Positions 16,452 to 53,191 of a stretch of 64,000 nucleotides of DNA are shown here, one piece after another (within the stretch, counting starts at the first letter, position 1; each line of letters starts with the position of its first letter). A program made the position numbers and the translations under genes. Source of the stretch: Desulfurivibrio dismutans. Its GTDB lineage: Bacteria; Desulfobacterota; Desulfobulbia; Desulfobulbales; Desulfurivibrionaceae. The DNA lies in contig NZ_JARGDQ010000002.1 in assembly GCF_029210385.1 (NCBI RefSeq), positions 186,001 to 250,000 on the forward strand, given 5' to 3'. Under the pieces are notes generated by a model, which saw only the letters and a program-made list of their open reading frames with translations, had not been told where the DNA came from and did no database searches.

Positions 16452-17569
16452 CCGGCGACCCCGAGCCCAGCAGCAGTAAGCAGGAAAGATCGGCCGATGA
16501 GCGGATAGCAATCATGGGGGCCGGCAGTTGGGGTACGGCGCTGGCACTGGTGCTGGCCCGTAAAGGTTTTCCGGTTGAACTCTGGAGCCACACCCCGGAG
16601 CGGGTGGGGGAGATGCGCCGGAAACGGGAAAACCGCCGGTACCTGCCCGATTTTCCCCTGCCTGAAAATATTTTTCCCGGTTCCGATCCGGCCGTGGTGG
16701 CAGGCTGTAAAGCCGTCGTCATGGCCGTCCCCTCCCACGGGTTTAGGGCGGTTTTTAAAAGGATAATTCCTCATCTGGCCCCCGGCGCCGCCATCATCTC
16801 CGCCGCCAAGGGGATTGAAAACGATACTCTGCTGACCATGACCCAGGTCATGGCCCAGGAGCTGGAAACAACCACTTCCTCCTCCCCGGTGCCGGGTCCC
16901 GAAGGTTGTTCCGGCGGTACCGGGGTGGCGGAATTACCGTTGGTGGGTCATCCGCTGGGAGTCCTGGCCGGGCCCAGTTTTGCCCGTGAGGTGGCGGAAG
17001 GCCTGCCCACCGCCGTTACCGTGGCCGCTGGCCGGGCCGAAGATGCCCGTTTTTTTCAGGAACTGTTTTTTACCGAACGTTTCCGGGTCTATGCCGGCAC
17101 CGACCTGATCGGTCAGGAACTGGGCGGGGCGCTGAAAAATATTATCGCCATTGCCGCCGGTATCAGCGACGGGCTGGGTTACGGTACCAACTCCCGGGCC
17201 GCTCTGATTACCCGGGGCCTGGCGGAGATCACCCGCCTGGGGGTAAGAATGGGGGCCCAACCTCTGACCTTTTCCGGCCTGGCCGGCCTGGGGGATCTGG
17301 TGCTGACCTGTACCGGCGATTTGAGCCGTAACCGCGGGGTAGGGCTGAAACTGGGTCAGGGGATGACCTTAGCGGAAATCCTTGATGAGATGCAGATGGT
17401 GGCGGAGGGTGTAAAGACCACCGCTTCCGCTTGGGCCCTGGCGCAAAAGCTGGCCGTGGACATGCCTATTTTGGAGCAGGTTTACCGGGTACTTTACCAG
17501 GATAAAGCATGCCGAGAGGCAGTGCGGGATCTGCTGGCCCGGGAAGGGCGCGATGAGTTGGAATATTGA
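16448..17569 (+). CDS. gpsA: Glycerol-3-phosphate dehydrogenase [NAD(P)+]
   Basis: 373 residues, longer than the usual 330-340. It reduces dihydroxyacetone phosphate to sn-glycerol 3-phosphate for phospholipid synthesis. The Rossmann motif [12 protein letters not shown] lies near residue 20; catalytic and substrate motifs [19 protein letters not shown] and [19 protein letters not shown] follow. The extra length is an insertion of about 25 residues rich in Ser/Pro/Gly between the conserved AAKGIEN helix and LAGPSFA. It overlaps gyrA by four bases and is followed five bases later by selD. Confidence 0.95.
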
Positions 17570-17574
17570 TAAAT

Positions 17575-18621
17575 ATGAAGCCTAAACTTACCAGTACCGT
17601 TAAAGCCGCCGGTTGAGCCGCCAAACTGGGTCCGGGGGATCTGGACCGGGTATTGGCGGACCTGGGTGTGCCGGGGATTGATGATCCCCGCCTGCTGGCC
17701 GGTATTGGCGGCGGCGAGGATGCCGGGGTCTATCGCCTTAATGACGAGACCGCCCTGATCCAGACGGTGGATTTCTTTACCCCCATCGTGGATGATCCTT
17801 ATCTGTTCGGCCGGATCGCGGCGGCCAATGCCTTGAGCGATGTCTACGCCATGGGCGGCACCCCGCTGCTGGCCATGAATCTGGTGGCTTTTCCGATTAA
17901 GAAACTGGATTGCGCCATTTTACGGGAAATTCTTAAAGGCGGGCTGGATACCTTGACTGAAGCCGGAGCCCTGCTGGTGGGCGGGCACTCCATCGAGGAC
18001 GAGGAGATCAAATATGGCCTTTCGGTTACCGGTACCGTTCACCCCAGCCGCTTGCTGCTTAATTCCGGTGCCCGGCCCGGCGATCAGCTGCTGCTGACCA
18101 AACCCCTCGGTACCGGGGTGTTGGCCACCGCCATCAAAGGTGGTCTGGCCGGGGCCGGCACGGAAGAGTTGCTTGGCCGGGTGATGGGGCTGCTCAACCG
18201 GGAAGCGGCCCAGGTGATGTCCAGCTCCGGCGCTCACGCCTGTACCGATATCACCGGCTTTGGTCTGCTGGGCCATCTCCATGAAATGGCCGCCGCCTCT
18301 GGGGTGGAGATTACAATCGATTCCTCGGCGGTGCCCCTGCTGCCGGAAACCCTTCATTTTGCCGGGATGGGGATAATTCCCCAAGGCGCCCACCATAACC
18401 GGCAGCACTTTCACCAGTTTGTCATCTCCCGGTTGCCCGATACCGATCCCCGGGAGATGGTCCTTTATGATCCGCAAACCTCCGGCGGTCTGCTCATCGC
18501 CGCCCCTCCCAAGGCCATCGCGGCCATGGCCGCACGTCTGCACAACCGTCGTTACCCGCTGGATTTCGGGATCATCGGTGAAGTCACCGATGGCCCGTCC
18601 GGGCAACTGGTTATCTCCTGA
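17575..18621 (+). CDS. selD: Selenophosphate synthase, itself a selenoprotein (UGA-encoded Sec14)
   Basis: Read from ATG 17575, the frame meets TGA at 17614-17616 and then stays open to 18621, giving 348 residues, the normal SelD length (E. coli 347). The TGA falls exactly where SelD has its catalytic Cys or Sec: the surrounding residues are KAAG-U-AAKLGPGDL, with the conserved Lys three residues later. Downstream, GGGEDAGVYRL, TVDFFTPIVDDPYLFGRIAAANALSD and the HSIEDEEIKYGLSVTG block are typical. The enzyme makes selenophosphate from selenide and ATP for tRNA-Sec charging. A start at 17653 would drop the N-terminal catalytic loop and is wrong. The Sec tRNA gene lies at 53.1 kb. Confidence 0.95.
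17614..17663 (+). promoter_or_regulatory. UGA selenocysteine codon with adjoining SECIS-like hairpin
   Basis: Immediately after the UGA, CCGCCAA (17618-17624) can pair with TTGGCGG further on, and inside it GGTCC pairs with GGACC around a G-rich apical loop (GGGGGATCT). Bacterial SECIS elements lie directly 3' of the UGA and are bound by SelB; position and shape fit, but the SelB-contact bases were not checked against a model. Confidence 0.6.
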
Positions 18622-18838
18622 TCTTCCATTATAAACAGTATGTTAGTGGTTTGTTGTGCCATGTTGCGGAAAGTTTTTATCTGCGACCTTGTGGTATTTT
18701 TTTTGTTTAACTCGTTTTTTTATATTGACATATCGGAACATTTAGACAACATGATATGTGTTTGTTTTTTTCATGAACTTTTTGCTCGTCCTGGGGGGCA
18801 GGGCCCCTGACTGAGCTAACCAGTTTCTTTTGCCGGTT

Positions 18839-18861
18839 TACCGCTTGTTTTATAAGCGGTA
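18839..18861 (+). promoter_or_regulatory. Perfect 8-bp hairpin in the leader of the DUF3373-type porin gene
   Basis: TACCGCTT and AAGCGGTA flank a 7-base loop (GTTTTAT), about 57 bases upstream of the ATG. There is no following T-run, so it is not a standard terminator. The wider gap (18622-18917) also holds TTGACA at about 18725 and a spaced inverted repeat CATATC...GATATG (about 18729-18758), possible promoter and operator parts. Confidence 0.35.
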
Positions 18862-18917
18862 CGCAACCGTCGGCAATCATGTCGGAAAAGATGATCCATA
18901 AGCTCAGGAGAAGAGAG

Positions 18918-20543
18918 ATGCGGAAAAAGATCAGTATGTTGGCTCTGGCCGGGGCGCTGGTGATCCCGGGAGCGGCACTGGCCCAAGAATTGAGCCTGGA
19001 GGAAAAGGTAGAGGCCCTGACCCGGGAGGTGGAAGAACTTAAGGCCCATACAGCCGAGATCGACGATACCCTGTGGCATGACATGAGCACCCGTTTTCAT
19101 TTATCCGGGGATTTTCGCAGTCGTTACGATTATTACAGCCGTGATCGTTACGTGGGTACGAATTACGTTGATACCGGCAGCGGCGTGATGATGCCCACTG
19201 ACATTAAAAAAGTTACCGAAAAGAACAGCAGTCTGATGACCAACCGCCTGCGGCTCAACATGTACGCCAGGGCCCAGGAGAACGTCGAATTTGTCGGTCG
19301 TCTGGCCATGTTCAAGGCCTGGGGTATGCAAAGTACCCCTGATAATACCGGGGATTTTCCAGCCATTGATGGTAACTCCAGTCGTCGTCCGGAAGACAAC
19401 AAGCTGCTGGTGGATCGGGCCATTATCAACTGGAACAATATCGCCGACACCAACTTCTGGTTTTCCATCGGTCGCCGCCCCACCACCGACGGTCCGCCCA
19501 GTCAGCTACGGATGAACAGCGAAACCCGGTTGGCCACCCCACTATCCTACATGGACTGGCCTTTTGACGGTTTGACCATCGGTTATGCTTACGACAGTCT
19601 GTTCAACGTTATCGACCTGCCCGGCCGGGTCCGTTTCTGCTTCGGTCGAGGTTTTGAGGCCGGTCTGGGAGAAAATACCCTGAAAGATACCGATTTCATG
19701 GGAATAAGCTGGGATATCTACAATAATAATGATCGCTTTGTCTACTTCCAGTCTTACGTGGCCAAAGATGTTTTCAACTTTCCCGACATGGATCAGGCAA
19801 TTGTAGACCAGATGAACCAGGATATGGCGTATAGTGCCCTTGCCATGGCTCAAAGTTATGGGCTGACCCCTGCACAGTATGGACCAATTTTTGAGGGTAT
19901 GACCCCCATGGAAAGGGACAATATCGGTGATATTTACCATACCGCCGCCCTCTACAAAGATCGAGCGCAAAACTTCCATTACTTTGTTGCCGGTGGCTGG
20001 AGTCGGACTGACCCCAACAGTAACGGAATGTTCAACGACAACGCGGCCGGAATGCAGGATTTGCAAGCGGCCCTGGCCATGACCGCCGGGCTGAATCCGG
20101 GAGATCCCGGCTATGTACCTTTTGCCAACTACAGCCCCAATACCAGCTCTGAAAACGGGTACTCCATTTACCTGGGAGCCCGCTACGATCTGCCCAATAC
20201 TCAATTCAAGTTCGGCTTGGAATACAACTATGGCAGTGAGTACTGGATTGGGATGAGCCCGGGTCATGACGACATTTACGCCTCCAAGCTGGCCACCCGT
20301 GGCCATGTTTACGAGGTGTACGGGATCTATGATATTCCCGGTAGAGCGGTTTCCAGTTTCGGTAACGCCTTTATCAGGGTGGGTTACCAGCATTACGACT
20401 ATAATTACACCGGTTCCCTGGACTGGAACACAAAACCTTACGATTTAAGCAGTTCTTCGGAGCGGGCTATGGCCACCTACATGGGCATAGAAACCGTCGA
20501 CAAGGCCGATCAGGTTTACGTGACCTTTGAGGCCCGTTTCTAA
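18918..20543 (+). CDS. Outer-membrane porin, DUF3373-like
   Basis: 541 residues from ATG 18918, chosen because AGGAG lies eight bases upstream and the signal peptide starts there (MRKKISMLALAGALVIPGAALAQ). After cleavage a short coiled-coil (LSLEEKVEALTREVEELKAHTAEID) precedes a large beta-barrel that closes with an aromatic C-terminal residue (VTFEARF), the usual outer-membrane insertion signal. Such N-terminal coiled coils trimerise porins or bind peptidoglycan. The family is common in epsilon- and deltaproteobacteria and its substrate is unknown. It is not in an operon. Confidence 0.75.
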   Translation: MRKKISMLALAGALVIPGAALAQELSLEEKVEALTREVEELKAHTAEIDDTLWHDMSTRFHLSGDFRSRYDYYSRDRYVGTNYVDTGSGVMMPTDIKKVTEKNSSLMTNRLRLNMYARAQENVEFVGRLAMFKAWGMQSTPDNTGDFPAIDGNSSRRPEDNKLLVDRAIINWNNIADTNFWFSIGRRPTTDGPPSQLRMNSETRLATPLSYMDWPFDGLTIGYAYDSLFNVIDLPGRVRFCFGRGFEAGLGENTLKDTDFMGISWDIYNNNDRFVYFQSYVAKDVFNFPDMDQAIVDQMNQDMAYSALAMAQSYGLTPAQYGPIFEGMTPMERDNIGDIYHTAALYKDRAQNFHYFVAGGWSRTDPNSNGMFNDNAAGMQDLQAALAMTAGLNPGDPGYVPFANYSPNTSSENGYSIYLGARYDLPNTQFKFGLEYNYGSEYWIGMSPGHDDIYASKLATRGHVYEVYGIYDIPGRAVSSFGNAFIRVGYQHYDYNYTGSLDWNTKPYDLSSSSERAMATYMGIETVDKADQVYVTFEARF

Positions 20544-20596
20544 ATCTCCTCCTGCGCCCGCTGGGTAGTGGCTGTCGCCGCCCCGGTGGGCGTTTC

Positions 20597-21454
20597 TTAT
20601 TCCCTTCCCTGCTCCAGTTCAGTTGCTGCCACACAGCGGTTGCGCCCCGTTTGCTTGGCCCGGTAGAGGGCCTGGTCGGCCCGGGCAAACAGCTCTTTTT
20701 CCGAACTCATCTGCCGGTTGAGACCGGCCACTCCGATACTGACGGTGATGGCGATATCCGGCCACTGCTCGTCTTCCTTGCTGTTTGCCGTCACCATGAC
20801 ATCTTCGGCGATGCTGCGGCGCAGTTTTTCCGCCAGTTTCAGGGCCCCTTTTTCCGGGGTGTGGGGCAGCATGATCAGAATTTCCTCTCCCCCGTAGCGG
20901 GCGATCAGGTCGGTTTCCCGCAACTGGCTTTTGATTTTTCCCACCAGGTTGATCAAAGCGCGATCACCGGCCAGGTGGCCGTGGGTGTCGTTGACTACCT
21001 TGAAGTGATCGATATCCAGCAACAGGATCGAGAGGGGCAAGTGGTCGCGGCGGGAGAGCAGAAACTCTTGGCGCAGCATGTACTCCAAATAGCGGCGGTT
21101 GTAGATGCCCAGCAGAGGGTCGGTAATGTTTTCCTGCTCAAGAATGCATATTCGTTTGAGTTCCAGGGTGGTTTTGAGCGAAAGGAGGTTGACCAGCAGG
21201 ACAAAAATCGCCCCCAAAAAAAGAATGAATGGGCCGATCAGGTCAACACGGCTGAGAACGCCATCCTTTTCCTGCTGTAGGAAAACGTAACCCAGGTAGC
21301 TGATAAAGAAGAAAAAAATGAAAATACCAAGAACCTTCCAACCTCGCCGCAATTCATCCTGGGGCAGTTCCCGGATCAGTTTGTGGACCAGGTAAATAGA
21401 AGCCAGGTGCATGGCGGATCCGGCCAGCACCAGGATGTTCAGGAAGGTTATCAT
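20597..21454 (-). CDS. Membrane diguanylate cyclase (GGDEF)
   Basis: 285 residues. Three hydrophobic segments (about residues 2-22, 41-60 and 72-93) form a small membrane sensor of no recognised type. A GGDEF domain follows from about residue 110, with the active-site variant GGEEI (188-192), the metal-binding DIDHFKVVND block, and an inhibitory I-site RETD five residues before GGEEI. It should make cyclic di-GMP from two GTP under product inhibition. The signal sensed is unknown. It is convergent with the porin gene, from which it is separated by 53 bases containing a weak GC-rich hairpin (about 20552-20590). Confidence 0.9.
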   Translation of the reverse strand: MITFLNILVLAGSAMHLASIYLVHKLIRELPQDELRRGWKVLGIFIFFFFISYLGYVFLQQEKDGVLSRVDLIGPFILFLGAIFVLLVNLLSLKTTLELKRICILEQENITDPLLGIYNRRYLEYMLRQEFLLSRRDHLPLSILLLDIDHFKVVNDTHGHLAGDRALINLVGKIKSQLRETDLIARYGGEEILIMLPHTPEKGALKLAEKLRRSIAEDVMVTANSKEDEQWPDIAITVSIGVAGLNRQMSSEKELFARADQALYRAKQTGRNRCVAATELEQGRE

Positions 21455-21677
21455 GCCGGATTTCTCTTATGGAAAGATGGTCTGAAACAAAGAGGCAATA
21501 AAAAATATATCTGCAGATGGGGATAAGTCAATGTTTATTGTCGTTTGCGACTGGTTATGTTTACTGTTCGCGGGAGTGGTTTAACTTGCTTTTGCGTGGT
21601 GAAAAAAGAGTGATGGGGAAGTGGAGAATGGTAACACTTTGTTACAGTGGTGTAAAGTAGAGGAAGGGGAGCAGTGT

Positions 21678-22076
21678 TTATTGATGCTTGCCGGTTTCCT
21701 GCGGGGGGCCAAAACGCTCTTCGATGCAGTGCATGATGCTGGCCAGAGCCGGTTCGGCAATGCTGTAGAATACCCGGCGGCCATCGCGACGGCTATCCAG
21801 GAAGCCGCGATCTTTTAACAGCCGCAGATGTTCAGAAACCATATGACTGGGCACTTCGCAGGCCCGGGCCAATTCTCCAACCGATTCTTCATGATCCAGT
21901 AGAATCTGTACGATCAGCAAACGATGCGGGTGGGCCAGAGTACGTAGGCACTCGGCGGCTTTTTCCAGGATATCCATGGATAAAAGCGGGACGGAATGGG
22001 ACACTGTTTCCTTTTCCATAAGGTTCACGCCCGGGTTGGCGGTGTTTTCTATCGTTGTCTGTTTCATGTTTAACAT
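21678..22076 (-). CDS. ArsR-family transcriptional regulator
   Basis: 132 residues (or 113 if it starts at the second internal Met, residue 20). The winged-helix core has AECLRTLAHPHRLLIVQIL, the recognition helix VPSHMVSEHLRLLKDRGFL and the wing DSRRDGRRVFYSI. Cysteines are at 43, 73 and 117. The C43/C117 pair lies roughly where thiol-switch members such as SqrR/BigR carry reactive cysteines that sense persulfide, so a sulfur-responsive repressor is possible, though metal sensing cannot be excluded. It is divergent from uppP, with 131 bases between. Confidence 0.85.
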   Translation of the reverse strand: MLNMKQTTIENTANPGVNLMEKETVSHSVPLLSMDILEKAAECLRTLAHPHRLLIVQILLDHEESVGELARACEVPSHMVSEHLRLLKDRGFLDSRRDGRRVFYSIAEPALASIMHCIEERFGPPQETGKHQ

Positions 22077-22207
22077 ACGGTGATTCGGGAGTTTGAAACC
22101 AATCGTGACTGTTTATAATAAACTCTACTACCACATGGAGCAGAGCAAAGCAAATATAATCGCTTTTTCATTGACCAAGTTAGTTACGATCGGTATAGGT
22201 GCCCCCC

Positions 22208-23005
22208 ATGGACTTACTGCAGATCATCATCCTGGCCGTGGTGCAGGGGCTCACCGAGTTTCTGCCCATCTCCTCGTCGGCCCACCTGATCCTGGTGCCG
22301 GTGTTGACCGACTGGCCGGACCAGGGGCTGAGTTTCGATATCGCCGTGCACCTGGGCAGCCTGGGGGCGGTGATCTGTTATTTCCGGCGGGAGCTGGCGG
22401 CCATGAGTCGGGACTGGTACCGCTCGGTGCGGACCCGTGAGTTGGTGGGGGAAAGCCGCCTGGCCTGGGCGGTGCTGCTGGGCACCATTCCGGTGGGGCT
22501 GGCCGGCCTGGCTCTCAAGGGGCTGGTGGAGAACCAGTGGCGCTCGCCGTTGGTGATTGCCGCCTCCCTTATCGGTTTCGGCCTGCTGCTGGCCTGGTCG
22601 GACTGGAAACATAAAAACGGCCGGGACGAACACAGTCTGAGCTGGCAAGACGTGGCCATCATCGGCGGCGCCCAGGCCCTGGCCCTGATCCCCGGCACCT
22701 CACGCTCCGGCATCACCATGACCGCCGGCCTTTTCCTGGGCCTGAGCCGCGAGGCCGCCAGCCGCTTTTCCTTCCTGCTCTCGATCCCGGTGATTATTCT
22801 GGCCATCGGACTGGAGACGGTTACCCTGGTGCGCAGCGACGAGGTGGTGGACTGGCTGAGCATGCTAATCGGCATCGCCCTGGCCGGCATTGCCGCCTAC
22901 CTCTGCATCCACTACTTCCTGGCCTTCATCCGCCGGGTGGGTATGCAGCCCTTCGTGGTTTATCGTATCGCCTTAGGGTTACTGCTTTTCTACTTCTTCT
23001 GGTAA
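22208..23005 (+). CDS. uppP: Undecaprenyl-diphosphatase
   Basis: 265 residues from ATG 22208 (an upstream GTG at 22199 would add three). It removes a phosphate from undecaprenyl diphosphate on the outer face of the inner membrane, recycling the lipid carrier for peptidoglycan and O-antigen. BacA-family signatures are complete: VQGLTEFLPISSSAH near the N-terminus and PGTSRSGITMTAGLFLGL around residue 165, with about eight membrane segments. Its stop codon lies inside the first copy of the hairpin repeat family described below. Confidence 0.95.
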   Translation: MDLLQIIILAVVQGLTEFLPISSSAHLILVPVLTDWPDQGLSFDIAVHLGSLGAVICYFRRELAAMSRDWYRSVRTRELVGESRLAWAVLLGTIPVGLAGLALKGLVENQWRSPLVIAASLIGFGLLLAWSDWKHKNGRDEHSLSWQDVAIIGGAQALALIPGTSRSGITMTAGLFLGLSREAASRFSFLLSIPVIILAIGLETVTLVRSDEVVDWLSMLIGIALAGIAAYLCIHYFLAFIRRVGMQPFVVYRIALGLLLFYFFW

Positions 23006-23118
23006 ATGCCCGGCAGCACCGCGGAAAGCGGCGATCGGCCCGGCCCACAAGGGGACAGCTTTCAAATCTGTCCCCGATCAGGCGCTTGCCGCTTGCCGGG
23101 ACGTGCTGAACATTTGCC
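23001..23118 (+). repeat. 109-nt hairpin family, copy A (interrupted)
   Basis: It begins within the uppP stop codon. The left half (CGGCAGCACCGC...GCGGCGATCGGCCCGGC) and the right half (GCTTGCCG...GTGCTGAACATTTGCC) match the family seen at 33.8, 35.4, 44.1 and 49.7 kb. A 25-nt palindrome of another family sits in the middle, replacing the usual apical GCGTAC/GTACGC part. The element lies between the convergent uppP and dikinase-like genes. Confidence 0.7.
23051..23075. repeat. 25-nt GGGGACAG...CTGTCCCC palindrome, copy 1
   Basis: Perfect 8-bp arms GGGGACAG / CTGTCCCC around a 9-base loop. The same arms and the same total length recur inside the dikinase-like gene at 26981-27005. Palindromes of this form resemble REP-type sequences moved by REP-associated tyrosine transposases; none is encoded in the window. 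Confidence 0.65.
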
Positions 23119-23139
23119 GGGTTATGTTGTAAGCGACCT

Positions 23140-26100
23140 TCAGATCGGCAGGATCTGCATTTCCTTTTTGGTGGGATGCGCCCCGGCCAGTACCAGCCCC
23201 TTGCGGCCGTCGATGCTGATATAATCCCCCAGGCCGATTTCCACCCCGTTGATCTCGCAGCGCTGCTCACTCTCATAGACCTTGAGGTTGGCGCAGCCCA
23301 CCACGCAGGTCTTTTCCAGGCGGGTGGCCACCACCGCCGCGTGCGAGGTCTGGCCGCCGCGGGCGGTGAGCAGGCCGTCGGCCACGGCGATCTCTTTGAT
23401 GTCTTCCGGCACCGTATCCTGGCGGATGAGGATGATCGTCGCCTCGGGATCTTCCTGCTGCAATTGCCGGATATGCTCCTCGTTGAAGGCCGCCCGCCCG
23501 GCCAGGGCGCTGCCGCTGACCCCGACCCCGTGGGCCAGTACTTCGGCGGCGGCCCGGTCGCCGTCGGCAAAGACCAGGAAGCTTTCCTTCTTTTTGATGG
23601 TGATCATGTCCCGGGTCTGCAGGATGTAGAGATCATCGGGGTCGGGGCTCTCGAAGGTAAACTCGATCTCCTGGGCGTTCCAGCGTTTTTCATACACCAG
23701 TTGCCGGCAGATGGTTAGCAGCCGTTCATAAACTTCCGGAAAGCGCCGCTCCAGGGTGTCTTCCGGTTCCCGGCCGTCCAGCTCCGCCTGCTCCACTGAG
23801 ATGGGATTGGTGGTCACCAGGCCGCTGACGATATCCTCCCCCTGGTCCCCCACCGCGTAGTCGCCCCACAGGGCCACCCGGCTGACTTTCCGGTAAGGAT
23901 GGGCGGTGAACAGCACGCCGCTGCCGGCTTGGGCATCGATGTTGCCGTACACCATAGTTTGCACGATCACCGCCGTGCCCCAGTCGTCGGAGATATCCAT
24001 GATCTGCCGGTAATCGCGGGTTTTGGGGGTGTTCCAGGAGGAGAGCACCATCTCCACCGCTCCGGTGAGCTGCAGCCAGGGGTCTTCGGGAATGCCGATG
24101 CCCAGGCCGCGCACCATCCTCTGGTACTCCAGGGCCAGATCCCGGATCTGGGCCGGGGAAAAGTCGCGCTTGTAGCGCACCTTGCAACGCTCCTTGGCGG
24201 CGTCCATCAGTTCCTGGAAGCAGTCCCGCTCCACCCCCCGGGCCATGGCCCAGGATTGGATAAAACGGCGGAAGTTGTCCCAGGCCAGAAACTCTTTGCC
24301 ATCCTGGCGAGCAAACTCGCCAACGATATCCTCGTTGAGCCCCAGGTTGTGGATGGTGGCCATCATCCCCGGCATGGAAATGGCGGCCCCGCTGCGCACC
24401 GACAGCAGCAGCGGGTTGGCCGGATCACCGAAGGTTCGCCCGGTCTGTTGTTCCACCCGGTTGAGCCCCAGGCGCAGGCGGGCCATGAAATCATCCCGGC
24501 TCTTGATGAACTCCTGCAGTACCGGCCAGCAGCGGAAAACCTCGGTGGTGACCACCAGCCCCGGCGGAACGGGATGGTTTTCGTCGGCCAGCAGGGTCAG
24601 GTTGTAGCCCTTGTTGCCCAGCAGGATAAGGTTGATCCCCCGATGGTGGCGGGGGTGCAGCGAGCAGATGGCCCGTTCCGGGTTGTAGGTCATCAGCAGG
24701 TCCAGGTGTTCTTCATCCAGCACCTCCCGTTGGGCCTCCAGGGTCTGGTAGATGCGGGTGATGAAGTTGTCCAGATGCTGCAGGCCGAAGGTGGAGGCAA
24801 TCAGATCCCGCATGAAGCTTTCCGACAGGCGGTTGATGTTGCCGCTCAAATCACTTTCCTGCCAGAGGAAGCGGTACTTGGGCAGCAGGTTGTCCTCGCC
24901 GATCTGGGGGATGATGATGCTCAGGTTGTTCTCGTGGAGGTTGGTGTAATAGGTGTAGATGACATCCTTGACCCCCTCCGACAGGCCCCGGAAGATGTCG
25001 AGAAACTGGGTGTAGGAAAAACGCTTGATGCCCAGCGAGTTACTGAGCAGCGACATGTAGGTGGTGAGCTTGCGGCTGCTGATGCCGTCGATCTTCAGAG
25101 CCCGCAGGTAGAGGCGCAGACACTTGATGATGCGGATAAAGGTGGCCTTGGTGATAATATTTAAATTAACCGTGTCCGGCAGCTTTTCGAGATAGTTGTT
25201 GGCCAGGTTCTCCAGCCGGAAGGTCAGGCTCAGGGCGTCGAACTTGCGTTCCTGGTAGCGGCCGTACACCGAGGGGATATCCACCGCGATATGGCGCTTG
25301 TGGTAAATACTTTCTTGGGCGACAAACTTTTCCTCGCTTAAAATAACTTCTTTCAGCCTTTCCAGGTGGTCCAGCAGGGCGTTTAAGCACTCGAAGGTAT
25401 CGCAGATCTCCAGGTCGGCCAGCAGTTGCTCCATCTCGGGGAAATCATCGATGGCCTGTTTCAGGTGCTGGCGCAGCTCCTCGGTGCCCAGGTTGTACTT
25501 CTGGTGACAAAGCCGGTACATCCGCACCAGCAGGTCAAAGCGGCGCCGCTCCCCTTCCGGGATGTCGGTCTGCTCGGCCAGCCAGGCCCGGCGGCGGGTG
25601 AAATCCCAGTTGAGCAGGTCCTCCACCTTGCGGATATGCTTGAGCTTCCACACCCGCTGGCTCAGCCGGTGCAGCTGATCGACAAACTCGCCTTCTTCTC
25701 TGATCTGCCGCCATACCTCCTCCGGCAGGTAAGGCGCCAGCCGCTGCTTGTTACGGTCCTTCCAGAAGAGCAGGATCGCTTCCTGGAAATCAACAATCAG
25801 GTTGCTGGACTCCACATGGCTCTGCTTGCGCAGAAAGTGGATCAGCAGGTCTTTGCGCTGGTGGATTTCATCGAGTTCGGTGGACACCTCCCGCAGCTGC
25901 CCTTCCGCCCCGATATCGTTGTAAAAGACCGGCACCAGCTTGGCGAACTGGGTTACCAGGTTGTAGACCGGTTCGATGGGGTGGTTGAGCAGCTCGGTGA
26001 TGTCCCGCTGGAAAAGATCGGTGTCCTTGAGGCAGGTGCCCGAGAGCTTGAGGTTGATGATCAGGGCCGAAAAGAGGGTGGAGCACCACTTGGGCTCCTG

Positions 26101-27669
26101 GCCGATGAGGTTGAGCCAGACCCGGATATTGGCCAGGTGGGCGGGGTTGGCCAAAGGTTGCCAATCCTCGCCGATGCCGGTGACGTTGGCGTACTGGAAG
26201 CCGAAACGCACCGTCTCCCACAGGAAAGTCTCCACCAGTCGGGAGTTGCCCCGCTTGAAGACCTCGCTGCCGATGACCTGGATGCACTGCAGTGAGGTAT
26301 GGGGATAACGGCGGACGTTGCTTTTCAGCAAAGCCAGGGTGGTGAGCAGGAAGCGTTCGATCTCTTCAAAGGTCTGGCGACGGATCAGTTGCACCAGGCT
26401 GCGGTTGATCTCCCGCAGGGTTTCCTCGTGGATCAGGCTCAGCCCCTTGGTTTCCATGATCCGGAAGAGAAAGAGCAGCTTGCGGTTTTCCGCGAAGCGA
26501 TCGGGGCAGAGCGGGTCTTCGTAGTCGCACTGGTTGGCTGTAGTCGCAATATCGGTGTTTTCGGCGGCGGCCGGCAAGTTCTGCGGAGTTGTCTGTGGAG
26601 TTGCCGGGTCATTTGGTGGACCGTCGCCGTCGCCGGTGAGCTTGTCAGGAATCTCCTTGTAGAGCCGCACCAGGTCCAAATGATCGGGCAACTCCAACAG
26701 GCGCGAAAGAGAGGTGGCGGGGTCCCGGTGGGCAATTTGGCCCACTTCCGCCAGGTGCTCCCGCAGTCGGGCGTGGGAAATCTCCTGGAACAGCCGGCCG
26801 GCCTGCCAGCCCCGGCAGAGGGTGGCGCATTCGGAGTCAAACCAGGGCTGGGGGTCTTCCTCCTCCAGCCAGTATTGGTAATTGAGGGTGAGCAGCCGTT
26901 CAAGCAGCCGGGCCGCCGCCTCCAGGTCGCAGAGGCGCATTTCCTCGCCCGCTTCCGATTTCGACGGTTCCGAATCACGGGGGGACAGGTCTGCAACCTG
27001 TCCCCGCTCACCCGTCGCCGCTCCGGCTGTCGTCCCCGACGGCCCTCCCCGGCCGCTTTCCCCGTGGCTTCTCTGGTCGGTTGCGGCGGCGGTGGTTGCC
27101 GGCTGGCGGCATTTGCTCACCAGCCGGGCGATGATCCGTTTGCCGGAGTGCTGGCCCTGCACCAGGGGTAGCAAAAGTTGGTCGTCCAGGGTTGCCAGCT
27201 GGTGGCAGCAGTGACTGATGGTTTGCCGGAAGTTGCCCAGTTCGTGGGGTTTGAGCAGCACCACCAGCTTGTCAAAAAAGGCCAGCAGGGCCTCGCCGGC
27301 TTGGGCTTGCAGCACCTCGTTTTTGGCCGTTTCCTGCAGGGAGGCGTGCAGTATGGCAAAAAGCCGAAGGCAGGCCTCCGGGCCCTTGGGGTGCCGCCGG
27401 TAATGGTCCAGATGCTTAAGGGTAAAGGAACGCAGTCGGGGCAGGATCAGCCGCCAGTTGCGGTAGGGGTGACTGATCTCGTAAAGCAGTTCCTCCAGCG
27501 GCCCCCTGATGCCCTGGTAGCCCGCCACCACCTCCAGCAGCACCTGCCAGTCGGGGTCCAGCTCGACGCACTCCACCGCCGTCTCCTGCAGGTTGGCCCG
27601 CAGGGCATCGGATTCAAACCCCGGCTTGCAGATCAAGTCTTTTTCATCGCTATTGTCGGAAACGGTCAT
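23140..27669 (-). CDS. Giant dikinase-like protein: ATP-grasp plus phosphohistidine domain, no PEP-binding barrel
   Basis: 1509 residues. About 1000 N-terminal residues match no family I recognise: helical, with Leu/Arg-rich repeats, and a low-complexity stretch around 190-240 and 360-380 that looks inserted. From about residue 1008 the PPDK/PEP-synthase ATP-grasp domain follows (GNKGYNLTLLA, LSVRSGAAISMPGMM, WGTAVIVQTMVYGN, GVLFTAHP), then the swivelling domain with its phosphorylated His in GGQTSHAAVV (about 1441). The protein then ends; the roughly 350-residue PEP/pyruvate barrel of true PPDK is absent. It should phosphorylate its own His from ATP and pass phosphate to an unknown acceptor. 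Its ATG overlaps the hicA stop, and it ends an operon containing glgA and gap. Confidence 0.8.
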   Translation of the reverse strand: MTVSDNSDEKDLICKPGFESDALRANLQETAVECVELDPDWQVLLEVVAGYQGIRGPLEELLYEISHPYRNWRLILPRLRSFTLKHLDHYRRHPKGPEACLRLFAILHASLQETAKNEVLQAQAGEALLAFFDKLVVLLKPHELGNFRQTISHCCHQLATLDDQLLLPLVQGQHSGKRIIARLVSKCRQPATTAAATDQRSHGESGRGGPSGTTAGAATGERGQVADLSPRDSEPSKSEAGEEMRLCDLEAAARLLERLLTLNYQYWLEEEDPQPWFDSECATLCRGWQAGRLFQEISHARLREHLAEVGQIAHRDPATSLSRLLELPDHLDLVRLYKEIPDKLTGDGDGPPNDPATPQTTPQNLPAAAENTDIATTANQCDYEDPLCPDRFAENRKLLFLFRIMETKGLSLIHEETLREINRSLVQLIRRQTFEEIERFLLTTLALLKSNVRRYPHTSLQCIQVIGSEVFKRGNSRLVETFLWETVRFGFQYANVTGIGEDWQPLANPAHLANIRVWLNLIGQEPKWCSTLFSALIINLKLSGTCLKDTDLFQRDITELLNHPIEPVYNLVTQFAKLVPVFYNDIGAEGQLREVSTELDEIHQRKDLLIHFLRKQSHVESSNLIVDFQEAILLFWKDRNKQRLAPYLPEEVWRQIREEGEFVDQLHRLSQRVWKLKHIRKVEDLLNWDFTRRRAWLAEQTDIPEGERRRFDLLVRMYRLCHQKYNLGTEELRQHLKQAIDDFPEMEQLLADLEICDTFECLNALLDHLERLKEVILSEEKFVAQESIYHKRHIAVDIPSVYGRYQERKFDALSLTFRLENLANNYLEKLPDTVNLNIITKATFIRIIKCLRLYLRALKIDGISSRKLTTYMSLLSNSLGIKRFSYTQFLDIFRGLSEGVKDVIYTYYTNLHENNLSIIIPQIGEDNLLPKYRFLWQESDLSGNINRLSESFMRDLIASTFGLQHLDNFITRIYQTLEAQREVLDEEHLDLLMTYNPERAICSLHPRHHRGINLILLGNKGYNLTLLADENHPVPPGLVVTTEVFRCWPVLQEFIKSRDDFMARLRLGLNRVEQQTGRTFGDPANPLLLSVRSGAAISMPGMMATIHNLGLNEDIVGEFARQDGKEFLAWDNFRRFIQSWAMARGVERDCFQELMDAAKERCKVRYKRDFSPAQIRDLALEYQRMVRGLGIGIPEDPWLQLTGAVEMVLSSWNTPKTRDYRQIMDISDDWGTAVIVQTMVYGNIDAQAGSGVLFTAHPYRKVSRVALWGDYAVGDQGEDIVSGLVTTNPISVEQAELDGREPEDTLERRFPEVYERLLTICRQLVYEKRWNAQEIEFTFESPDPDDLYILQTRDMITIKKKESFLVFADGDRAAAEVLAHGVGVSGSALAGRAAFNEEHIRQLQQEDPEATIILIRQDTVPEDIKEIAVADGLLTARGGQTSHAAVVATRLEKTCVVGCANLKVYESEQRCEINGVEIGLGDYISIDGRKGLVLAGAHPTKKEMQILPI
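26981..27005. repeat. 25-nt GGGGACAG...CTGTCCCC palindrome, copy 2, inside a coding region
   Basis: Ten-base arms GGGGACAGGT / ACCTGTCCCC around CTGCA, same length and same outer arms as copy 1 at 23051-23075. It is in frame in the dikinase-like gene and encodes part of its low-complexity stretch (GERGQVADLSPRD), so it appears to be a tolerated insertion. Confidence 0.65.
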
Positions 27670-27842
27670 TTGGTCAGTCGCTCAATGATGCGTTTGGCCA
27701 GGTGCTCGTTGATCTCACGATGCCGCGGCACCGGCTCCGAGGCTCCGGAGGCGGGGTTGTGATAAATGTCATGTTTCCCGCCATGCCGCAGGAGGATGCA
27801 TCCGGCCTGTTGAAGACAGTTGACCAGATCCCGCTGCTTCAC
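27666..27842 (-). CDS. hicA: HicA-type mRNA interferase toxin
   Basis: 58 residues starting at GTG 27842. The sequence follows the HicA pattern: KQRDLVNCLQQAGCILLRHGGKHDIYHNP, with the catalytic His in GGKHDIY, and the ending VPRHREINEHLAKRIIERL. It is a double-stranded-RNA-binding-fold ribonuclease that cleaves mRNA when freed from HicB. Its start overlaps the hicB stop (GTGA) and its stop overlaps the start of the dikinase-like gene (ATGA). Confidence 0.88.
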   Translation of the reverse strand: MKQRDLVNCLQQAGCILLRHGGKHDIYHNPASGASEPVPRHREINEHLAKRIIERLTK

Positions 27843-28033
27843 GCTACCTCCAGTTCCGCGACTCGTCTGATCCCCGGGATCTCCTCATCGGCGAACATTT
27901 CGACCAAATCAGTCAGGTGTTCCCGCAAATCCTCCAGGTCGGAGCCCTGGGTCCAGTGATCCGGGTAGTCGTTGAGGTAGCCCAAGTATGTGCCATCCGG
28001 TTCTTTCCAGTAGGTAAACTTTATTTTCCGCAT
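27839..28033 (-). CDS. hicB: HicB-type antitoxin
   Basis: 64 residues. It matches the partial RNase-H-like fold of short HicB proteins: KFTYWKEPDGTYLGYLNDYPDHWTQGSDLEDLREHLTDLVEMF. It lacks the extra C-terminal DNA-binding domain of longer HicB proteins, so autoregulation may be weak. It should neutralise the adjoining HicA. The gene order (antitoxin first) and the 13-base gap after gap place the pair inside a metabolic operon rather than under its own promoter. Confidence 0.85.
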   Translation of the reverse strand: MRKIKFTYWKEPDGTYLGYLNDYPDHWTQGSDLEDLREHLTDLVEMFADEEIPGIRRVAELEVA

Positions 28034-28046
28034 TTGCTTCTCCGGC

Positions 28047-29051
<1,005 letters not shown>

Positions 29052-33604: not shown

Positions 33605-33709
33605 TCGGGTGACGGATTTTTTTCACCCACGGCCTGGAACTAATTTTCCAGGCCCTTGTCTCTAAGACAAGGGTGCCATAAAAAAGCACTCCGCATACCC
33701 CTCCGGGCT

Positions 33710-33762
33710 CTTCCTGTCATCTCTCCCCCTCCCCCTCCATGACAGGAAGGGCCTTTTTTTTT
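33710..33762 (+). terminator. Rho-independent terminator after the peroxiredoxin gene
   Basis: CTTCCTGTCAT (33710-33720) pairs perfectly with ATGACAGGAAG (33739-33749); GGCC and nine T residues follow. Two further hairpins precede it: GGCCTGGAA...TTTCCAGGCC (about 33631-33654) and CCCTTGTCT...AGACAAGGG (about 33653-33673). Confidence 0.85.
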
Positions 33763-33871
33763 GGAAAACGTTCAGCAGCACCGCATCTTGCGGCGATCGG
33801 CCCGGCTTGCGTACTGAGGTACGCGGCGCCGGTCCGCTTGCCGCAACCTGCGGCACTGCTGAACGTTTTCC
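33763..33871 (+). repeat. 109-nt hairpin family, copy B
   Basis: Terminal arms of 16 bases (GGAAAACGTTCAGCAG / CTGCTGAACGTTTTCC) are perfect inverted repeats. Inside, CCGCA/TGCGG, TTGCGGC/GCCGCAA, CCGGC/GCCGG and GCGTAC/GTACGC pair in turn, so almost the whole element folds as one hairpin. It directly follows the T-run of the peroxiredoxin terminator. The remaining 150 bases before the next gene show nothing recognisable. Confidence 0.85.
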
Positions 33872-34021
33872 TGTTTGGTTGTTCGGGGGTTTTTTTGTGG
33901 GGTGCCTGTCGGGCTTTGCGGTCCCTTCCCCGGTGCTAAAGCCAAAGAATTTGGCGGCTCCCTGTTGTCCTCGGTTTTTTCCTGGCGTATTGTTCGGGGT
34001 TTTGGGTAAAGTGGGCTGATT

Positions 34022-35437
34022 ATGCACGCTCCCAAAGCATCGGCAATCAACATTATCTGGCTGGGGATGATCGCCGTGGCCACGGTGACCGCCGCCTATA
34101 CCGGGCGGATGGACGAAGTGACCACCGCCTCTTTTGAGTCGGCCAAGTCCGGGGTGATGCTGGCCATCGGCTTGATCGGGCCCATGGCCTTCTGGCTGGG
34201 GCTGATGAAGGTGGCCGAGGCCGGCGGGCTGATGCGGATGATCGCCCGGGCCCTGCGACCGCTGATGACCCGTCTTTTTCCCGATGTGCCCGCCGAGCAC
34301 CCGGCCATGAGCGCCATGATCATGAACATGGCCGCCAACACCATGGGCCTGGGCAACGCCGCCACCCCCATGGGCATCAAGGCCATGCAGGAGTTGGACA
34401 AGCTGGCCCAGGAAAAAGGCACCGCCACCAACGCCATGTGCCTCTTTCTGGCCATCAACACCTCCAGCGTTACCCTGCTGCCCCTGGGTGTGATCACCGT
34501 GCGGGCCGCCGCCGGCGCCACCAGTCCGGCGGAAATTCTCATTCCCGCCATCGTCGCCACCTTTTGTTCCACCATGGTGGCCATTACCATGGCCAAGCTG
34601 ATGGCCGGGCCCGAGCCGGGCAAACCGCCGCTGCCGGGTGGCTTTTCCGCCACTTCGGGGGCTGGTGCTTCCTCCGCCGTGGCCGGTAAACCGGCGACGA
34701 CGTCCGGCCCGCCGGCCGATAAAACCACCACCACTGCCGAGGAAACCAGCCGTTCCGGCCAGGCACAGGAGCCGCCGCCGGACCGGGAACATACCCTGAG
34801 CCCGCCCGGCAGCGCCGGCCGCTTTTTCATTTTGCTGCTGTTGCTGGCCTTTGCCGGCGGTATCGTTTACCGGCTGTTCTTTGTTGCCGGCGGTGGCGGC
34901 GAGGAAAACTCCATCTCGGTGATCGGCGCCGTTTCCACCTGGATCATCCCCATGCTTATCGCCGGTTTGCTGATTTTCGGTTATCTTCGCGGGGTCAGGG
35001 TGTATGAGGTGGCCACCGAGGGGGCCAAGGAGGGGTTCAACACCGCGGTGCGGATCATCCCCTTTCTGGTGGCCATCTTCGTGGCCATCGGCATGTTCCG
35101 GGCCAGTGGCGCCATGGAGATCATGATCAAGGTGCTCTCGCCCTTCACCGAACGGCTCGGGCTGCCCGCCGAGGCCCTGGGCATGGCCCTGATGCGGCCC
35201 CTTTCCGGCAGCGGCGCCTTCGGCATGATGAGCGAGATCGTGGCCCGCGACCCGGACAGCTTCGTGGCCTTTCTGGTTTCGGTCATGCAGGGCTCCACCG
35301 AGACCACCTTTTATGTGCTGGCGGTTTATTTCGGCGCCGTGGGCATCACCCGCACCCGGCATGCCCTGCCTGCCGCCCTCACCGCCGACGCCGCCGGGAT
35401 CGTGGCGGCGGTGGTTGTTTGTAACCTGTGGTTTTAG
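34022..35437 (+). CDS. SpmA-SpmB fusion, nucleoside-recognition (Gate) membrane protein
   Basis: 471 residues. The N-terminal half (to about 200) is SpmA-like (AKSGVMLAIGLIGPMAFWLGLMKVAEAGG, NMAANTMGLGNAATPMGIKAM). After a low-complexity linker rich in Pro, Thr, Ser and Ala (about 200-262), the C-terminal half is SpmB-like (FNTAVRIIPFLVAIFVAIGMFRASGAM, MRPLSGSGAFGMMSE, QGSTETTFYVLAVYFG). SpmA and SpmB were named for spore maturation in Bacillus, but the Gate fold is a transporter-like membrane unit found in many non-sporulating Gram-negatives. The substrate is unknown. Its stop lies at the first base of a hairpin repeat. Confidence 0.88.
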   Translation: MHAPKASAINIIWLGMIAVATVTAAYTGRMDEVTTASFESAKSGVMLAIGLIGPMAFWLGLMKVAEAGGLMRMIARALRPLMTRLFPDVPAEHPAMSAMIMNMAANTMGLGNAATPMGIKAMQELDKLAQEKGTATNAMCLFLAINTSSVTLLPLGVITVRAAAGATSPAEILIPAIVATFCSTMVAITMAKLMAGPEPGKPPLPGGFSATSGAGASSAVAGKPATTSGPPADKTTTTAEETSRSGQAQEPPPDREHTLSPPGSAGRFFILLLLLAFAGGIVYRLFFVAGGGGEENSISVIGAVSTWIIPMLIAGLLIFGYLRGVRVYEVATEGAKEGFNTAVRIIPFLVAIFVAIGMFRASGAMEIMIKVLSPFTERLGLPAEALGMALMRPLSGSGAFGMMSEIVARDPDSFVAFLVSVMQGSTETTFYVLAVYFGAVGITRTRHALPAALTADAAGIVAAVVVCNLWF

Positions 35438-35545
35438 GCAAACGTCCGGCAGCACCGCATCTTTGGGCGATCAGCCCGGCTTGCGTACGGGTGTACGCGG
35501 CGCCGGGCTGCTTGCCCAAACCTGCGGCACTGCTGGACGTTTGCC
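35437..35545 (+). repeat. 109-nt hairpin family, copy C
   Basis: It begins on the last base of the preceding stop codon. Arms GGCAAACGTCCGGCAG / CTGCTGGACGTTTGCC pair at 15 of 16 positions, although both differ from copy B. An inner stem is also changed on both sides (TTTGGGC/GCCCAAA instead of TTGCGGC/GCCGCAA), which preserves pairing, and AGCCCGGC/GCCGGGCT is a second paired change. Confidence 0.88.
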
Positions 35546-53093: not shown

Positions 53094-53191
53094 TGGCGGA
53101 AGTGCATGGGAATCGAACCCACCCACCAGGCTGTTAACCCGGTGCACCGGATTTGAAGTCCGGGAGGGCCACCAGTGCCCTTTCCACTTCC
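53094..53191 (-). tRNA. selC: tRNA-Sec (anticodon TCA)
   Basis: About 98 nt including CCA, far longer than a normal tRNA because of a long variable arm (GTGCACCGGGTTAACAGCC region), as in Sec tRNAs. The acceptor begins GGAAGTG and pairs with CACTTCC. The anticodon stem CCGGA/TCCGG encloses CTTCAAA, giving anticodon UCA that reads UGA. The T-arm has GGTTCGATTCC. It serves selenoproteins such as the Sec-containing SelD encoded at 17.6 kb. Confidence 0.93.

Follow-up and report, generated by a model that had tools for sequence, protein, structure and literature searches.

What does a phosphohistidine dikinase phosphorylate when it has kept its two catalytic domains and lost the barrel that binds phosphoenolpyruvate (PEP)? 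The question is raised by a gene in a 64,000-nucleotide stretch of the Desulfurivibrio dismutans genome (assembly GCF_029210385.1, contig NZ_JARGDQ010000002.1, positions 186,001 to 250,000; hereafter the window). The initial annotation of this DNA, made from its letters, suggested a glucan or other carbohydrate acceptor; we find that glyceraldehyde-3-phosphate dehydrogenase (GAPDH), rather than glycogen synthase, is the meaningful neighbor of the dikinase. The reading that we tentatively prefer, at a probability of roughly 0.35, is that the protein derives from pyruvate, phosphate dikinase (PPDK), that a helical acceptor module has replaced the barrel, and that it works with an obligate partner, a long-type GAPDH (GapL), at the triose-phosphate/phosphoglycerate step.

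The gene is a minus-strand open frame of 1509 codons at exactly 23140-27669, read from 27669 to 23140. A Pfam search of the whole protein returned two domains and nothing besides, PPDK_N at residues 1060-1297 (E 3e-25) and the PEP-utilizers His domain at residues 1412-1491 (E 2e-17). Residues 1016-1500, that is, the ATP-grasp and His domains in the same order as in PPDK, align to residues 17-511 of the C. symbiosum enzyme (1kbl) with an E value of 1e-79 and 30-33% identity; a model of residues 375-1509 (mean predicted local distance difference test score, pLDDT, of 86.6) matches 1kbl across 541 columns with a root-mean-square deviation (rmsd) of 3.4 Å. In a set of 78 diverse homologues, reduced in redundancy to less than 90% identity, K1020, R1092, E1336, Q1351 and R1353 are invariant (78/78), as is the phosphohistidine, H1443, in a TSHAA motif that keeps the TSH of PPDK; we take these to be PPDK residues K22, R92, E323, Q335, R337 and H455, the correspondence having been read off the printed alignment to 1kbl. 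With NCBIfam models the protein scores 366 bits for PPDK (TIGR01828; the family cut-off is 843) and 73 bits for PEP synthase; because the similarity to PPDK is far above that to PEP synthase, the charging half-reaction would naturally be of the PPDK type, that is, ATP + inorganic phosphate (Pi) to AMP + pyrophosphate (PPi). The genome also encodes a PEP synthase of the ordinary kind as a separate protein; apart from it, no protein with a PEP barrel was found there.

PPDK itself runs on to about residue 874 with its PEP/pyruvate barrel. The dikinase stops nine residues past the end of the PPDK match, that is, just after the His domain, so the C-terminal barrel is missing; a barrel hidden in the N-terminal part was ruled out by the absence of a PF02896 match and by a model that is all-helical. 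Unlike PPDK, the protein places approximately 1000 unrelated helical residues ahead of the core. For residues 1-1010 Pfam gave no match, and the best match among solved proteins, even with the 78-sequence profile, was no better than E 0.29. Thus, the initial annotation had the length and span of the gene (it stated no strand), the intact ATP-grasp and swivelling His domains, the missing barrel and the unassigned residues right, and the N-terminal PEP-binding barrel that it named as a possible refutation is absent. The architecture (usually about 1370-1580 residues) is kept across relatives; chance is therefore excluded.

In the model of residues 1-1010 (mean pLDDT 85, predicted TM score 0.81) everything is helix except a few short strands. 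Foldseek and VIA-align searches of the PDB returned generic helical-repeat proteins only (best Foldseek E value 8e-4 at a TM score of 0.1; VIA Z at most 11, with an rmsd of 17 Å); these matches are uninformative, and we do not take them as proof of a new fold. Conservation is more telling: at least 98% of the homologues agree at 68 positions in residues 376-1010, 40 of them polar or aromatic, and at far fewer, 7, in residues 1-375. Invariant residues are dense in 586-620 (IGAEGxLRxxxTxxDExxxRxD...RKxxHxE) and in 786-828 (KRHIAVDIPSxYGRYxExKF...R.E). So many invariant Arg, Lys, His, Asp and Glu residues make an enzyme-like and not a scaffold-like pattern, and we infer that residues 376-1010 are the acceptor module that replaces the PEP/pyruvate barrel. 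The invariant stretch KRH....IPS.YG.Y.E.KF falls on a low-confidence hairpin loop in the model, and this loop (within residues 785-829) is possibly part of the active site.

The family was surveyed within the phylum of D. dismutans. The gene is present in 36 of 38 near relatives, in 78/78 genomes of the class and, as a strong match, in 88 of the 296 sampled genomes of the phylum, with one further weak match to the N-terminal module (genome G377). It is single copy in each genome; a contig scan gave three close relatives and no more, none of the relatives found was plasmid-borne, and our literature search found no paper that describes the family. The family is real, widespread and apparently undescribed: a single-copy core gene of the whole sampled class, whose members are sulfur-cycling bacteria, and of nearly a third of the sampled phylum, for which we found no described function. 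What is new is the acceptor module and the pairing with GAPDH; the mechanism belongs to a known class.

In tblastn searches, 35 of 40 relatives (about 30 families) have a GAPDH gene no more than 1.7 kb from the dikinase gene, as does the window; the other five have no GAPDH nearby. Two kinds recur in several different arrangements: GapS (334-347 residues), usually directly upstream of the dikinase, and GapL (402-443 residues), usually directly downstream and sometimes convergent on the opposite strand. Several lineages have the order gapS-[dikinase]-gapL-pgk-tpi-secG. At loci such as L104, L106 and L125, lptA-lptB-rpoN-hpf-ptsN-rapZ-EIIA-GNAT stands ahead of this run (names assigned by reading the neighboring sequences), so that a sigma-54/PTS-Ntr cluster is joined to glycolytic genes. 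In the order to which the window belongs GapL is unlinked from the dikinase; the copy in the window's genome is on contig 23 (G000:C23:154951-156156), beside a GNAT gene and the gene for phosphoglycerate kinase (PGK).

Linked or not, GapL follows the dikinase. Scored as present at an E value below 1e-130 (51-87% identity), it was found in 36/36 carriers and 0/30 non-carriers, in which the best GAPDH match was 5e-43; a second comparison, aimed at taxonomic families that contain both kinds of genome, gave 31/31 and 0/19. Nine carriers are common to the two comparisons, and the overall count is 58/58 carriers and 0/49 non-carriers. The six mixed families (carriers/non-carriers: f64 5/5, f59 3/3, f43 3/1, f20 3/1, f21 1/5, f15 1/2) segregate without exception, and simple descent of one clade therefore does not explain the pairing. 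G377, with its weak match, has no GapL. Of the GAPDH residues, GapL retains the catalytic Cys (in SCTTT), the His (in T[VI]HA) and the Arg of the phosphate site (in VR[IV]P); it has extra segments and, in the coenzyme region, NxGRxxG in place of the ordinary INDL, and what is known of GAPDHs suggests that the loss of the INDL Asp would favor NADP(H).

The carriers are mostly sulfate-reducing bacteria. A DsrA above its cut-off is encoded by 35/36 of them, compared with 9/30 non-carriers (Fisher 3e-9, without correction for phylogeny). Sulfate activation releases PPi and AMP. These are also the products of PPDK-type charging, which is a possible reason for the association with DsrA.

That the dikinase and GapL genes depend on each other suits a two-enzyme step or a complex. 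In the cycle that we favor, the ATP-grasp domain would charge H1443 from ATP and Pi, yielding AMP and PPi; the charged His domain would then swing over to the N-terminal module, where the phosphoryl group would pass to a C3 acid, our first guess being the carboxylate of 3-phosphoglycerate; GapL would receive the resulting 1,3-bisphosphoglycerate by channelling and reduce it to glyceraldehyde 3-phosphate. In the reverse direction, ATP would be made from the AMP and PPi of sulfate activation. Domain content, the invariant catalytic residues, the missing barrel, the adjacency to GAPDH and, in the genomes tested, the exceptionless pairing with GapL are observed; the use of Pi, the acceptor, the direction and the channelling are what we infer here. 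Driven by ATP + Pi to AMP + PPi, the step would be more favorable in the gluconeogenic direction than with PGK alone. In its most specific form, a ‘3-phosphoglycerate, phosphate dikinase’ (3-phosphoglycerate + ATP + Pi = 1,3-bisphosphoglycerate + AMP + PPi, channelled to GapL), the proposal is rather unlikely; if it is correct, sulfate reducers would couple triose-phosphate metabolism directly to the AMP and PPi from sulfate activation. If the dikinase is an enzyme, it brings an acceptor module of a new kind, and perhaps a reaction new to the most ancient part of glycolysis, with a tie to the AMP/PPi economy of sulfate reducers, and the link to one GAPDH subfamily already gives the dikinase a concrete, directly testable place in central metabolism.

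Several points weigh against the reading that we prefer. PGK is encoded by all 46 carriers tested (for G113 and G305 the match is to no more than a fragment at the edge of a contig), so that there is no need for another route to 1,3-bisphosphoglycerate, and the idea that the dikinase replaces a missing PGK is ruled out. In its predicted form the N-terminal module is like a helical solenoid, a type of structure that commonly binds proteins, and GapL as the phospho-acceptor itself would also explain the dependence on GapL. The Fisher tests ignore phylogeny, for which the mixed families control only in part. Finally, one genome (G105) carries the dikinase and GapL and has no DsrA; GapL is therefore the tighter link.

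A regulatory histidine-phosphotransfer kinase would fit the first three of these points, and we consider this explanation nearly as likely as the C3-acid transfer that we favor. The histidine would be charged according to the balance of ATP/Pi and AMP/PPi, and the protein would phosphorylate or bind GapL (or both GAPDHs), thereby switching triose-phosphate flux; the solenoid would be the docking platform, a dedicated protein substrate would suit both the obligate pairing and the adjacency, and there would be no missing step to fill. The precedent is VadK of M. tuberculosis (Rv1127c), a PPDK without the barrel that phosphorylates itself and interacts with enzymes of the methylcitrate cycle (PMC13400623). 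Like VadK, the dikinase has PPDK-type ATP-grasp and His domains without the barrel and is tied to a neighboring central-metabolic pathway; unlike VadK, which has no added acceptor module, it carries a conserved 1000-residue module and is paired with GAPDH. That module is conserved as strongly as the catalytic domains and is rich in invariant charges, beyond the usual need of docking, and with a regulator one would sometimes expect a genome that has GapL and no dikinase, whereas the 49 non-carriers include none. If the protein is a regulator, it would join VadK as a second example of a metabolic histidine kinase made from a PPDK.

It is less probable, and on present evidence doubtful, that the dikinase acts on another small molecule, of which GapL would handle the product or the precursor; glyceraldehyde, glycerate and phosphorylated sugars or cofactors are examples. 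The insertions in GapL and its NxGRxxG motif are consistent with a substrate that differs from plain glyceraldehyde 3-phosphate; however, no gene of a distinct pathway recurs beside the dikinase, where gap, pgk and tpi are all glycolytic. In rifampin phosphotransferase (RPH), the acceptor domain sits between the ATP-grasp and His domains. The similarity of the dikinase to RPH is weak (NF041857, 33.7 bits with a cut-off of 999; Foldseek E value 8e-5). RPH belongs to the same dikinase superfamily and likewise has its acceptor domain replaced, although its ATP-grasp domain is of the PEP-synthase type. Relatives with such replaced modules act on diverse small molecules, among them rifampin and hydroxyphenylethanones (PMC4844700, PMC12167813). 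The phenol dikinases HpeHI, CreHI and PpsAB are likewise modular with a separate acceptor part; they are, however, split over two polypeptides, of the PEP-synthase/RPH type and active on aromatic substrates (PMC12167813).

A glucan or carbohydrate acceptor, by analogy with plant glucan, water dikinase, is very improbable; genomic context, co-occurrence and fold all rule against it. Glucan, water dikinase and phosphoglucan, water dikinase are phosphohistidine dikinases with a non-PEP acceptor and carbohydrate-binding modules, in which the His domain precedes a C-terminal ATP-binding domain; in the dikinase the order is helical module, ATP-grasp, His. The run with glycogen synthase and GAPDH on which the initial annotation based its proposal is real in the window, where a diverged GlgA adjoins. 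Across relatives the GAPDH half of that neighborhood persists and the glycogen half does not: glycogen synthase adjoins the dikinase in 8/40, all within the window's order. Co-occurrence with glycogen genes, on which the proposal also depended, runs the other way: 40/88 carriers have a canonical GlgA (above the NCBIfam cut-off), a lower share than the 150/207 among non-carriers. In 12 carriers no GlgA-like protein matches better than E 1e-30; these 12 include all but one of the sampled members of a small-genome family (f38). Structure prediction, which the initial annotation proposed as a check for carbohydrate-binding folds in the N-terminal region, gave no such fold and no beta-sandwich in residues 1-1010, and Pfam matched no carbohydrate-binding module in the dikinase. 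The diverged GlgA type in the window occurs across its order, and we do not judge it to be part of the dikinase system.

Least probable of all is a substitute for Enzyme I of the phosphotransferase system that feeds PtsN/EIIA of the rpoN clusters: rpoN-hpf-ptsN-rapZ-EIIA genes do precede gapS and the dikinase at several loci and the window's genome has no Enzyme I (PF05524, its N-terminal HPr-binding domain, matches neither the dikinase nor anything in that genome), but 30/36 carriers and 29/30 non-carriers have Enzyme I, and this coexistence largely refutes the idea.

Table 1. Domains of the dikinase and adjoining genes, in window coordinates.
Feature	Position	Strand	Basis or remark
Dikinase gene, PPDK-derived, no PEP barrel, 1509 residues	23140..27669	-	Open reading frame, Pfam, PPDK alignment
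Residues 1-375, helical N-terminal region, poorly conserved	26545..27669	-	Conservation profile, pLDDT
Within residues 1-375 region: variable low-complexity insert (~190-245); linker (~355-385)			Conservation profile, pLDDT
Residues 376-1010, candidate acceptor module, all-helical, conserved	24640..26544	-	Conservation, model
Residues 785-829, two-strand hairpin and flexible invariant loop	25183..25317	-	DSSP, pLDDT dip at 792-799, invariance
Residues 1016-1365, PPDK-type ATP-grasp domain	23575..24624	-	Alignment, model superposition, invariance
Residues 1370-1509, swivelling phosphohistidine domain, TARGGQTSHAAVV with H1443	23143..23562	-	Pfam, alignment, invariance
GAPDH, short type (GapS)	28047..29051	-	Conserved upstream neighbor in relatives
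Diverged GlgA-like glycogen synthase, 607 residues	29068..30891	-	Below NCBIfam glgA cut-off; adjoins dikinase only in the window's order
Chorismate synthase	30888-32000		Gene run with GAPDH and GlgA
Shikimate kinase	32107-32775		Gene run with GAPDH and GlgA

Elsewhere in the window, no Rfam motif was found within 17400-28100. A 597-residue frame at 33662-35455 (minus strand) has no Pfam or NCBIfam match, and its coding strand is uncertain because the opposite strand is also open (34022-35437). The selD gene (17578-18621, plus strand), which is shortly followed by a gene for a 554-residue DUF3373 protein (18879-20543, plus strand), starts upstream of the listed TTG frame and contains a TGA at 17614-17616; with this codon read as selenocysteine the product begins MKPKLTSTVKAAGUAAKLG..., and SelD thus appears to be a selenoprotein itself. 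The window also encodes a tRNA-Sec (53094-53191).
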